From: Thiogranum sp. | GTDB taxonomy: Bacteria; Pseudomonadota; Gammaproteobacteria; DSM-19610 | Length of the DNA stretch: 35,106 nucleotides | Assembly: GCA_024636585.1 (NCBI GenBank) | Contig: JAGXGS010000086.1 | Coordinates: forward strand, 1-35,106 | Direction of reading: 5' to 3' | Notes under the pieces: generated by a model | The model's input: the letters and a program-made list of their open reading frames with translations, nothing else | Told to the model about the DNA's origin: nothing | Database searches by the model: none | Shown: positions 5,749 through 26,912 of the stretch, piece by piece | Position numbering within the stretch: position 1 is the stretch's first letter | Layout: each line of letters starts with the position of its first letter | Program-made: the position numbers and the translations under genes

Positions 5749-6423
5749 CTAACGGGTTTTGGAAAGATCCCTTGCCTCCTGCAACTTGCCTGCTATTGTG
5801 TCTTTTTTCTTCGGCAAGTCTAACCCGTGTTGCGCGCCCATTTGTTGCAAGATTTCTGCTGCTTTGGAATGCTTCTCAATAGGCAGTTTGGCCTCCGCTG
5901 CCAGTACAGCAATGATCTGTAACAGGCTGGTGCGTTCTCGTGGGTCTAAATCCGCCCCCCTGCTCTCCTGCTCGGCGGGCTTTGACGCTTCCAACAGCCC
6001 GACTAGATCCTTGGGTATATCAAAACCCTTACCCTTCGCCCATAACAGGAACTGCACGGGATACACACGCCTCTCAGGCCACGCGCGTCCATAATCCTTA
6101 CCGTCGAAGGGCTTTAAGTTTCCTGCGCCTAAAGATGTTTCTGCGCAAGCGATTGTTGTTTCGTATTGGGTTCCCTGCATACGCTTCCTAAGTACACCCT
6201 CGGGAGTTTCGGCATCTGGAACCAAACCCGCTATTAATTGACAGGCTTCCTTTACTGTCCAGAGATCGCGCAGACACCAATCCCCCAATGCTTTCCGGCG
6301 CAGCACCTCGATTCCAGAGTGCATTTCAGTTCGCATTTCTTCGAGAACTTTCCTGCCTTCTTCCTCCTGTTCTACAGTCAATCGCGCTGATTTAGGGGGC
6401 GGATCTGTAGGTCCATCGATCAT
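5749..6423 (-). CDS. Element-associated protein of unknown function (224 aa)
   Basis: Its ATG overlaps the integrase stop (ATGA), so it is made from the same message. The N-terminus is charged and probably helical (EEEGRKVLEEMRTEM). The middle has WCLRDLWTVKEACQLIAGLVP and WPERRVYPVQFLLWAKGKGFDIP. The C-terminal 60 residues (LLQIIAVLAAEAKLPIEKHS, then KAAEILQQMGAQHGLDLPKK and DTIAGKLQEA) resemble a tail seen, from memory, in many integrase-adjacent proteins of islands and prophages, probably a small helical DNA-binding module. I know no assigned function. A role in integration control fits its position only. Confidence 0.65.
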   Translation of the reverse strand: MIDGPTDPPPKSARLTVEQEEEGRKVLEEMRTEMHSGIEVLRRKALGDWCLRDLWTVKEACQLIAGLVPDAETPEGVLRKRMQGTQYETTIACAETSLGAGNLKPFDGKDYGRAWPERRVYPVQFLLWAKGKGFDIPKDLVGLLEASKPAEQESRGADLDPRERTSLLQIIAVLAAEAKLPIEKHSKAAEILQQMGAQHGLDLPKKKDTIAGKLQEARDLSKTR

Positions 6424-7514
6424 TCGACACCCCCAAAAATGCGGACGTTCATACGCGCAACCACGCTAGCCGCATGAGGCTCTGACAGGTGGCTATACCG
6501 CTTCACCATTTGCAGGGTCTTGTGTCCTAGCAGCTCAGCAATTTCGCCCAGCGAAGCCCCTGACATAAGCATGTAGCTTGCCGCCGAATGTCTCAGGTCA
6601 TGAAATTTGAGGTCTTCGATCCCTGCCGCCTTCACGGCTTCAAGCCAAGGGGCGCGGATAAACACAGGTTTCTTGGGATTCCTACCGGGGAATAACAGGT
6701 CTGTATCAATGCGGCGCACCTTTTCGTCGCGCCTTGCCTTATCTTTCGCTTTCAGCAGATCTAGCGCACGGCCGAGCAAGGGCACTACCCGCCGTTCGCC
6801 GTTCTTGGTTTCGTGCAGAATTACCCGACCATTGTTCAGATCGACGTCTGGCCAGCGCAAGTTTAGTATTTCGCCTTGCCGCATACCCGTGGATAAGGCC
6901 AACACGACAATGGTGTGCAGGTGTGGGTTATTCGATTCCTTGCATGCTTTCAACAAACGACTACGTTCACCGTCCACTTTCTTACCGTCCGGCCCCATTG
7001 AATCGTCCGACAGAAACCGCACCCGGCCCCGTGGTTCCCTAGGCTTGCTGACTTTCCGCATAGGGTTACTTTCTAGCCAGCCCCATTCGTTCACCGCCAC
7101 GGTAAACATATGCGACAGGGCAGCCATATAGCGCACTACGGTGGCGGGGCCACGGTCTTGGGCTAACTTATCGCGAGTTTCGCCCAACATCGCAGGCGTC
7201 ACGTCAGCCAGCGTATAAGGGCCGATCTCATCAGCCCACCAATTAAGCTGCGCTTCCTGTTTCTTGCCGTCCTTCTTCGCTGGAAGGACCGATTTCTTAT
7301 AGCTGGTAATCGCATCCTGCAAAGTGTGCTTTCGGGCTTCCGTGGTTTTGAAGTACCTGCCTTCTTCGATAGCAGATTCCACATGCTTGGCCCACTTCCT
7401 TGCGTCAGTCAGTCGGGAGAAGGTCGCCCGCTGTGCTGGAAAGCCTTTCAGGCGCACGTCCACGCGATAGGATACGGAATCATCCTTGTTGGTCCGCTTG
7501 CGTATGGAGGCCAT
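6420..7514 (-). CDS. int: Tyrosine recombinase / site-specific integrase
   Basis: This 364-residue integrase recombines the element with the tRNA-Phe 3' end. An N-terminal AP2/arm-binding-like region (SVSYRVDVRLKGFPAQRATF) is followed by a SAM-like core-binding domain (about 65-150). The catalytic domain has Arg212 (STGMRQGEILNLRW), His305 and Arg308 (FHDLRHSAASYM), His331 (LLGHKTLQMVKRY) and the nucleophile Tyr340, so it looks active. It lies on the same strand as tRNA-Phe, about 490 bp from it, the usual arrangement for P4-like integrases. The ATG at 7514 overlaps the stop of a 12-residue leader peptide (TGATG), with a G7 tract upstream. The next gene overlaps its stop codon. Confidence 0.95.
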   Translation of the reverse strand: MASIRKRTNKDDSVSYRVDVRLKGFPAQRATFSRLTDARKWAKHVESAIEEGRYFKTTEARKHTLQDAITSYKKSVLPAKKDGKKQEAQLNWWADEIGPYTLADVTPAMLGETRDKLAQDRGPATVVRYMAALSHMFTVAVNEWGWLESNPMRKVSKPREPRGRVRFLSDDSMGPDGKKVDGERSRLLKACKESNNPHLHTIVVLALSTGMRQGEILNLRWPDVDLNNGRVILHETKNGERRVVPLLGRALDLLKAKDKARRDEKVRRIDTDLLFPGRNPKKPVFIRAPWLEAVKAAGIEDLKFHDLRHSAASYMLMSGASLGEIAELLGHKTLQMVKRYSHLSEPHAASVVARMNVRIFGGVE

Positions 7515-7552
7515 CAGCCTGCCCCCCCGGTGATACTATTGCTGCATGCCAT
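7514..7552 (-). CDS. 12-residue leader peptide upstream of the integrase, crossing a G7 tract
   Basis: The frame reads M-A-C-S-N-S-I-T-G-G-A-G and stops at a TGA that overlaps the integrase ATG (TGATG). Its own ATG has the best ribosome binding site in the region, GGAGG with eight bases to the start codon (GGAGGTTAGGCAATG). The integrase ATG has only the G7 run and AGG. The coupling suggests that ribosomes reach the integrase by reinitiation. A -1 slip in the G7 run would fuse the leader in frame to the integrase. The frame could be chance; the signal quality and overlap argue for it. Confidence 0.5.
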   Translation of the reverse strand: MACSNSITGGAG

Positions 7553-7554
7553 TG

Positions 7555-7616
7555 CCTAACCTCCGCACAAGGTTGGTAGTGGTTAGGGCCGTTATGGTGT
7601 CTCACCACCTTGGCGG
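7555..7616 (-). promoter_or_regulatory. Structured integrase leader RNA: alternative stems over the leader-peptide ribosome binding site
   Basis: Three pairings can be drawn in the minus-strand transcript. (a) CCGCCAAGGT (7616-7607) pairs with ACCTTGTGCGG (7573-7563) with one bulge. (b) The hairpin TGGTG-AGA-CACCA (7607-7595) sits inside (a) and shares one base with it. (c) CCTAACC (7587-7581) pairs perfectly with GGTTAGG (7561-7555), which overlaps the ribosome binding site. Helices (a) and (c) cross, so they form a pseudoknot or compete. I recall an RNA class named int-alpA from integrase and alpA leaders; membership is untested. Confidence 0.5.
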
Positions 7617-7674
7617 CCTGCCCTTTTTAGGAACCTGCAAAACACAGTACAGCAAACCACCAAAAACGGCAATA

Positions 7675-7734
7675 GGGGATATATAATCCCCGTGTATAGT
7701 TATTAAATACCGAATAGATTCAATGTAGTTGAAT
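7675..7734 (-). promoter_or_regulatory. Candidate integrase promoter flanked by two perfect inverted repeats
   Basis: GGGGAT-ATATA-ATCCCC (7675-7691) and ATTCAA-TGTAG-TTGAAT (7718-7734) are perfect 6-bp inverted repeats, each with a 5-base centre, 43 bp apart. Between them on the minus strand are TTGAAT (7723-7718) and TATACA (7698-7693), separated by 19 bases, a possible promoter reading into the integrase leader. The repeats would then be operators at the -35 box and just downstream of the -10 box. Confidence 0.4.
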
Positions 7735-7752
7735 ACTTGCGCCGCCAATAAA

Positions 7753-7770
7753 GCGCACGAATGGCGCAAT
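7753..7770 (-). repeat. Arm-type repeat copy 2 (inverted)
   Basis: Read on the minus strand it is ATTGCGCCATTCGTGCGC, which equals the 7914-7931 copy at 15 of 18 positions. The three differences fall in the spacer between the two half-sites. Confidence 0.6.
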
Positions 7771-7913
7771 GAAGACGAAAAAAGTACATTTTGGGCCGCA
7801 TAGGTTCGCCGGATTTATCTACTTTAGACGGGTTTGGCGGGTGCCTTTGCAGAGGGAAACAGTCTGGGGTGGACTACTGGCAGAGTGCGCTTTGTGGTGA
7901 CTTGCTGCCAGCA

Positions 7914-7931
7914 ATTGCGCCACCAGTGCGC
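7914..7931 (+). repeat. Arm-type repeat copy 3
   Basis: The sequence is ATTGCGCCACCAGTGCGC. It lies about 70 bp inside the right attachment core, in direct orientation to copy 1 at 1587-1604. Confidence 0.6.
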
Positions 7932-8000
7932 CATTTATAATTAGAGCCAGCTGTACTTAAGAGTTAACAATCTTGATTTATAAGGATTTAAAGCAATAAA

Positions 8001-8049
8001 AATGGTGGCCAGGGACAGAATCGAACTGCCGACACGGGGATTTTCAGTC
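8001..8049. repeat. Right attachment site inside tRNA-Phe
   Basis: This 49-bp direct repeat of 1434-1482 covers the 3' part of the intact tRNA gene, including the anticodon. Crossover lies somewhere inside this identity block. Because the block restores the tRNA 3' end, integration leaves the tRNA working. Confidence 0.95.
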
Positions 8050-8078
8050 CCCTGCTCTACCAACTGAGCTACCTGGCC
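8003..8078 (-). tRNA. tRNA-Phe (GAA)
   Basis: The 76-base gene encodes its own CCA end (8003-8005). The acceptor stem GGCCAGG pairs with CCTGGCC. The anticodon stem GGGGA/TCCCC holds the loop CTGAAAA, giving anticodon GAA. The T arm has GTTCGATTC. It is the integration target of the element on its left. Confidence 0.97.
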
Positions 8079-26535: not shown

Positions 26536-26841
26536 TTACTTCAAACTGGAATAGTAAGCAGCCAGATTCTCGATATCGGCATCGCTCAGCGGCTTCGCCA
26601 TCGGCGACATCATCGGATCTTTACGATCACCGGCACGAAAGGCTTTCAGCTGCTTGACCATGTAAGGGGCCTTTTGACCAGCCAGGTTCGGCCACAGAGG
26701 ATTAGCGCTCACGCCTGCGGGTCCGTGACAACCCGCACAGGTAGCGGATTTGGCTTTACCGGCCGCCGCGTCGGCGGCAAAACCGGCATTCGCGGAAACC
26801 AGCAGCAAGCTGGATATTGCAGCAACAACATATTTTTTCAT
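26536..26841 (-). CDS. Small periplasmic class I cytochrome c (c553-like)
   Basis: This 101-residue electron carrier has a signal peptide ([20 protein letters not shown], cut near FAADA). The mature protein has a single heme site CAGCH ([20 protein letters not shown]), [20 protein letters not shown], and the axial Met region [20 protein letters not shown]. It may pass electrons to a terminal oxidase. It is divergent from the HDOD gene, and an FNR-like box lies in the gap between them. Confidence 0.93.
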
Positions 26842-26912
26842 CGATCTTCACCACTCTCTTTTTAAGGGCCAGAAACTCGCTGTATTCTCGCAAACCCTCC
26901 CGTCACTGTAAA

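Follow-up and report, generated by a model that had tools for sequence, protein, structure and literature searches.

Control of an integrase is usually described in terms of promoters, repressors and excisionases. Recombinases under antisense control include that of IS10, whose antisense RNA is RNA-OUT; RepY is the leader peptide of ColIb-P9. None of the titles and abstract openings listed in searches of open-licence papers dealt with an integrase controlled by an antisense RNA. Several small antisense RNAs are known that act on the start of a message. Relatives of the RNA considered here are described as antisense to the translation start region (PMC8136791), and the Inc RNA of ColIb-P9 as an antisense RNA on the leader of a replication gene (PMC9977716). 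SymR is described as abundant and more stable than expected, and further functions of it are considered possible (PMC1891008). The locus described here lies in a stretch of 35,106 nucleotides from Thiogranum sp. (contig JAGXGS010000086.1, assembly GCA_024636585.1), which will be called the window. Comparison with related loci indicates that the message of a tyrosine integrase (int) begins under an RNA element whose structure is conserved and covaries. Very probably this element is the gene of a small antisense RNA encoded in cis, of the same kind as RepX (R1162), SymR and FinP, which is predicted to repress the integrase through a coupled leader peptide. The features concerned are the following.

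6420-7514, minus strand: tyrosine integrase (int), 364 amino acids; PF00589 at E 3e-34, phrog_1 integrase
7514-7552, minus strand: leader peptide of 12 codons, MACSNSITGGAG; its stop TGA overlaps the int ATG at 7514 by one base (TGATG)
7522-7528, minus strand: G7 tract, seen in the sequence near the expected site of the integrase's own Shine-Dalgarno
7531-7539, plus strand: extended -10 box TGaTACTAT (4 of 6), predicted antisense promoter, inside the leader peptide
About 7545-7628, plus strand: predicted antisense RNA of about 80 nucleotides with two stem-loops and a U5 tail; match of model R1 at 7544-7625
7548-7583, plus strand: stem-loop 1, with a 9-bp outer stem, a bulge, a 5-bp inner stem and a 7-nucleotide loop, over the leader's Shine-Dalgarno and ATG
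7550-7552: leader ATG, within stem-loop 1
7560-7564, minus strand: leader Shine-Dalgarno GGAGG, seen in the sequence and lying under the predicted antisense RNA
7586-7619, plus strand: stem-loop 2, a terminator-like hairpin with 9 outer and 4 inner pairs
7624-7628, plus strand: T5 tail after stem-loop 2, seen in the sequence

Structure and strand of the predicted RNA

The loci compared were the best 80 integrase loci among 224 stretches encoding a relative of the integrase. A subset of their leaders has a common block, consisting of GGCC-hairpin-GGCC, CTRACC, AACCT...GGAGGTT and AATGGC, followed by a short frame. MAFFT with RNAalifold on 18 leaders gave 15 pairs only, 7 of them with double changes, because two groups of sequences were out of register, and this alignment was replaced by a nine-leader model. 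The resulting covariance model R1, built from 9 relatives with the window left out of training, finds the window with 70.6 bits (E 8.8e-17 in a search of 876,819 bases). It also finds the repA starts of two IncQ plasmids, neither of which is in the model, with E of 1.2e-8 and 2.8e-7.

The pairs were then counted in an alignment of 23 rows (A7), comprising 17 integrase leaders, the window, the viral-contig integrase locus L089, two IncQ loci and two loci in L036. On the antisense strand 543 of its 591 pair cells (91.9%) are paired, and 23 of the 27 pairs have changes on both sides; covariation in the leaders of relatives, which the original prediction had set as its own test, is present. Double changes occur in 107 cells, compared to 28.6 after shuffling and at most 24 when the pairs are slid by 1-3 columns. 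As the rows of A7 are related sequences and the alignment had been fitted to the structure, the shuffles are not to be read as probabilities. The slid controls, together with 18 separate folds, answer part of this circularity. Both hairpins contribute: 11 of the 14 pairs of stem-loop 1 and 12 of the 13 pairs of stem-loop 2 have double changes, and in stem-loop 2 94.8% of the cells are paired.

The same alignment distinguishes the two strands. Read as the integrase message, it pairs in 456 of the 591 cells, fewer than the antisense strand because G-U pairs form on one strand only. In the outer stem of stem-loop 1, 174 of 202 cells are paired in the antisense strand versus 121 of 202 in the sense strand, and the inner stem of the same hairpin pairs in 90 of 98 cells in the sense strand. 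The covariation and the G-U pairs therefore assign the structure to the strand opposite to the integrase message.

Folding of single sequences points the same way. The 84-nucleotide core of the window folds on the antisense strand with a z-score of -3.44, none of 200 shuffled sequences being as good, whereas the sense strand is no better than chance (z +0.73 for 7500-7640 and -0.97 for the core). The same pair of stem-loops forms on the antisense strand of every one of the 18 leaders (17 plus the window), and in each of them this is the more stable of the two strands, with z ranging from -2.24 to -6.02 for the antisense and from -0.02 to -4.15 for the sense strand.

Leader peptide and candidate signals for transcription

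Comparison of the loci supports a coupling between the leader peptide and the start of the integrase. Among the 18 integrase loci there are 14 in which the frame starting in the RNA ends within -10 to +16 nucleotides of the integrase start, a range picked after the data had been seen; 6 of the 18 frames overlap the start by exactly one base. Shuffled leaders gave a mean count of 3.4 and a maximum of 9, and 14 was reached in none of 2000 shuffles. For this count the start codon with the nearest stop was chosen within 15 positions, and in 18 of 18 loci it was that in the start block of the RNA. In L089 the RNA lies directly over the integrase's own ATG, and there is no leader peptide. The locus L015, a sister in the tree of the RNA-bearing L014, has no match to the model, yet by eye it keeps the one-base overlap of leader and integrase.

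A candidate promoter of the antisense RNA lies inside the leader peptide. The best -10-like hexamer is found at offset -13 or -14 from the antisense 5' end in 15 of the 23 rows and is preceded by TG in 17 of them, some of this agreement being due to chance as the search covered 14 positions. In 56 further loci, which were found by a model called R2 and not used in building it, the columns TAnnAT lie outside the modelled columns and carry 1.13 (T), 1.12 (A), 0.47 (A) and 0.61 (T) bits. At the other end of the RNA, the tails of most integrase relatives are T-rich by eye.

These results can be set beside the original prediction, which was made from the window alone and described a leader of the integrase at 7514-7616. 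The feature is there and reaches further, to about 7628. The 12-residue frame that overlaps the integrase ATG was correctly recognized. The bulged stem with an inner hairpin of that prediction corresponds to stem-loop 2, whose complementary arms at 7586-7619 exist, whereas the fold of the message strand in which it had been placed is no better than chance. A 7-bp stem was also proposed to pair with the ribosome binding site and to cross the first stem. The complementarity is real (CCTAACC at 7555-7561 and GGTTAGG at 7581-7587), and the minimum-energy fold of the window's sense strand does form this stem, with the long outer stem only in part; in A7, however, the crossing helix is not supported, as 96 of the 145 cells counted in the sense strand pair and four of the seven base pairs form in 12 of 22, 11 of 19, 13 of 22 and 11 of 21 rows. 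The G7 tract is likewise present in the window and is not kept as G7 in relatives, which by eye show GGAGG- or GGGG-like stretches nearby.

Occurrence in relatives and other genes

Of the 80 relatives, 17 have a match of model R2 at the start of the integrase. The RNA is also present at the integrase of L089, one of four viral-contig integrases searched (a fifth viral locus, L093, was left out). In a tree of 83 integrases (the 80, the window, L089 and L090) the presence of the RNA requires 6 changes, compared to 17.4 with shuffled labels, and none of 500 shuffles was as low; the well-supported branches force only two gains or losses, the bootstrap being not settled. The genome of Methylomicrobium sp. 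RS1 has three separate integrase loci, each with its own RNA (L156, L157 and L158).

The RNA extends beyond integrases. Matches of R2 were found in 36 of the 369 genomes sampled from the class and in 39 of the 398 sampled from the phylum; the samples overlap, since three of the matching genomes, including that of the window, belong to both. Another phylum, to which the genome of another locus belongs, gave a match in 1 of 232 genomes, and the contrast with the class is partly one of size because the genomes listed there have 1.0-1.9 million bases. In the 58 loci listed (30 main loci of the class and 28 further ones) a start codon lies 8-9 nucleotides inside the 5' end of the RNA, a position that is partly a matter of construction because the model itself contains that CAT. 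The 39 proteins starting at the RNA that were compared with Pfam are a part of such frames, ten downstream frames having been scanned apart. Eight of them are SymE; single matches are to an ArdC-type protein, a C5 DNA methylase, Rha, a LuxR-type protein, HNH and, below threshold, a helix-turn-helix (HTH) protein; 25 have no Pfam match.

Two loci with additional copies may be mentioned. The Rickettsiella locus L036 has two copies of the RNA at other genes (2182-2260 and 2722-2801); a protein with a LuxR-type HTH starts at one of them and, by eye, a short frame at the other. The host genome of the window has a second, weaker copy on contig C55 at 26808-26886 (L127 2809-2887; E 2.6e-4), which overlies a 23-codon leader ending at the start of a 165-amino-acid frame without a Pfam match.

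Among the Rfam families, RF00043 (Plasmid_R1162) matches the window over its full length, 1-75, with 24.3 bits (E 0.069). It also matches the leaders of 5 of the 7 relatives scanned (not L016 and L054), the best with E 5.6e-4. When 40 of the 56 further loci (L098-L126 and L128-L154) were scanned with E limits of 1 and 0.1, RF01809 (SymR) was found in 19 on the RNA strand and RF00043 in 15 on the mRNA strand. It therefore seems that the two models represent the same type of locus read on opposite strands, and the Rfam outputs show no common clan for them. At L129 1504-1581 and L098 1504-1579, RF00043 on the mRNA strand and RF01809 on the antisense strand are found at the same locus. RF01811 (PtaRNA1) matches L098 and L107. 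When one leader was compared with plasmids by blastn, a single match resulted that was not convincing, and pTcM1, a weak plasmid match to the R1162 consensus, has no replication gene at the place of the match.

The mobile element

The window contains an element of about 6.6 kb flanked by 52-bp direct repeats that are 98% identical.

7998-8049: attL-like 52-bp direct repeat, within the 3' part of the tRNA-Phe gene
1431-1482: attR-like repeat, at the far end of the element
8003-8078, minus strand: tRNA-Phe

The integrase and tRNA-Phe genes share their orientation. A tRNA gene in the same orientation lies at most 1.3 kb upstream in 10 of the 19 RNA-bearing integrase loci (9 of 18 scanned, and the window); L031, with only 496 upstream bases, is too short for a verdict. 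The element also encodes a PriCT_2 protein and an AAA_25 protein. Three frames between the integrase and the primase (224, 66 and 131 amino acids) have no match in Pfam, PHROG or NCBIfam. A PEP-CTERM-like protein is encoded inside the element at 1669-2394, with NCBIfam matches below the cut-off.

The DNA upstream of int contains other repeats. The dyad GGGGATTATATATCCCC is found at 7670-7688 of the window. Among 81 regions upstream of integrases, 25 contain the pattern GATTA..TC..TTG, compared to a mean of 0.3 after shuffling, and 24 of these 25 loci are ones without the RNA. The arm at 7674-7695 (repeat I3) is 82% complementary to the anticodon region of the tRNA.

Proposed mechanism and alternatives

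By combining the above information, it is possible to describe how the RNA might act. The extended -10 promoter inside the leader peptide would start an RNA of about 80 nucleotides at about 7545. The RNA would fold into two stem-loops and end at the U-rich terminator at about 7628. It would then pair with the integrase mRNA over the leader's Shine-Dalgarno and start codon, thus blocking translation of the leader. The integrase would be started by ribosomes that end on the leader, at the TGATG overlap, and because of this it would be silenced along with the leader. As the element lies 3' of the tRNA-Phe gene with int in the same orientation, the RNA may serve to stop read-through transcripts from making integrase. 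The transcription of the RNA, the repression and the role towards the tRNA are what we infer, whereas the conserved structure, its strand, its overlap with the start, the antisense -10 box and the coupled leader are found by comparison of the sequences.

A number of observations weigh against this mechanism. No -35 box was found and a scan for consensus promoters was empty on both strands; the -10 box of the window matches the consensus at just four of six positions, and the TAnnAT columns are weaker in 20 integrase loci (0.61, 0.40, 0.03 and 0.56 bits). The tail is T-poor in L007, L031, L062 and the IncQ loci. R2 has no match at the integrase start in 63 of the 80 relatives. Four of the 18 loci (L016, L040, L059 and L067) have a leader that stops far away from where the integrase begins, and L016 has ACG in place of the leader ATG. 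Relative to shuffled sequences, the sense strand is the more extreme one in L040 (z -2.66 vs -2.24) and L067 (-4.02 vs -3.10). The fitting of A7 to the model favours the model's own structure. The window does not reach the gathering threshold of RF00043 (55 bits), and the matches of RF00043, symR, FinP and PtaRNA1 in relatives and R2 loci are all below gathering. A ProQ/FinO-family protein was not found in the host genome, which is 83% complete.

The original prediction had favoured a switch within the integrase mRNA itself, in which the sense strand would alternate between hairpins that mask the leader's Shine-Dalgarno and hairpins that leave it free. The sense strand can indeed form mirror hairpins in most cells, including nearly all those of the inner stem of stem-loop 1, the 7-bp stem is present in the window's sense fold and the leader is coupled, so that such a switch could even coexist with an antisense RNA. 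As described above, however, it is the opposite strand to which the covariation and the G-U pairs point; in the sense strand the outer stem of stem-loop 1 and the crossing helix pair poorly, and the window's sense fold is like that of shuffled sequences. A switch also leaves the antisense -10 box and the U tail unexplained, and is for these reasons unlikely. The palindromes might instead act in the DNA, as a cruciform or a binding site of the integrase or an excisionase that merely mimics RNA stems. Their position between attL and int, with other dyads near, would suit such a role; the strand-asymmetric G-U covariation, the U tail, the -10 box at a near-fixed spacing and the occurrence of the element at the start codons of unrelated genes (symE, ArdC-type, DNA methylase, rha) make it highly improbable.

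A further possibility is that the antisense RNA exists and has its main effect elsewhere than on integrase translation, either by interfering with transcription or by acting in trans on a different target. Its transcription would oppose that of int, and the stability, abundance and possible additional functions of SymR noted above would be in line with a wider role. The near-constant placement of the start codon 8-9 nucleotides inside the RNA, with the reservation about the CAT given above, and the position of the RepX-type relatives over the translation start region argue against this, and we think it quite unlikely. Repression of integrase translation by the antisense RNA through the coupled leader is therefore preferred.

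If true, a copy-number-type antisense RNA acting via a coupled leader would add a layer to the control of integrases. It would give a testable reason for the silence of a tRNA-adjacent integrase and for a possible exclusion of related elements by each other. One model also joins RF00043 with RF01809 and finds further candidate antisense RNAs at start codons, on targets that mostly have no Pfam match (the 25 of 39 above). It may be speculated, with considerable doubt, that plasmid-type antisense control of copy number has been taken over for site-specific integration. The resident RNA might recognize its own kind through its loops and silence both its own integrase, against read-through from the tRNA gene, and that of an incoming sibling, which would amount to a plasmid-like incompatibility. 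The R1162, SymR, FinP-like and integrase RNAs might then represent one mobile antisense module that has been picked up repeatedly.

Comparison with known antisense systems

In structure and position the predicted RNA agrees with the RepX/SymR/FinP-type start-codon antisense RNAs: it has two stem-loops with a U-rich 3' end within about 75-85 nucleotides, and its sequence is complementary to the message where the Shine-Dalgarno and the start codon of the frame under putative control lie. A close resemblance is to RepX/R1162 of the IncQ plasmids (L086 and L087), which has the same two-stem-loop antisense fold over a Shine-Dalgarno and an ATGGC start, similar first codons and a similar -10 region, and is found by R1, a model made of integrase leaders only. 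RepX targets the plasmid repA directly, whereas here a leader peptide is coupled to the tyrosine integrase of a chromosomal element. The setting of the window, a chromosomal element and a site before an integrase, is not the repF-repA junction of an IncQ plasmid.

The int-alpA RNA class (RF02996), to which the original prediction thought the leader might belong, was rejected: it has no match in 7350-8000 of the window at E up to 10, and the same Rfam release places it above gathering in L098 and L100. Its likeness is by Rfam name alone, as an RNA tied to int and alpA genes. In those two loci the int-alpA RNA (L098 1861-1930 and L100 2122-2191) lies a few hundred bases from the antisense RNA match, and L098 also encodes a distant integrase with 31% identity.

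SymR is likewise a cis-antisense RNA, and eight SymE genes have an R2 match at their start codon. It differs in repressing a type I toxin; the target in the window is not SymE, and RF01809 finds nothing in 7350-8000 even with E values up to 10 allowed. FinP, which acts on traJ of F-like plasmids, is represented by a match of RF00107 to one R2 locus, L121, below gathering. Its target is an activator of conjugation, and no FinO-family protein was found in the host genome, as far as it is complete. The Inc RNA of the repY/repZ system, compared by description only, disrupts a pseudoknot needed for repZ translation, and its target is a replication initiator. The start-codon antisense kind is thus already known, and what is most likely new at this locus is the integrase as the target, reached through a coupled leader.
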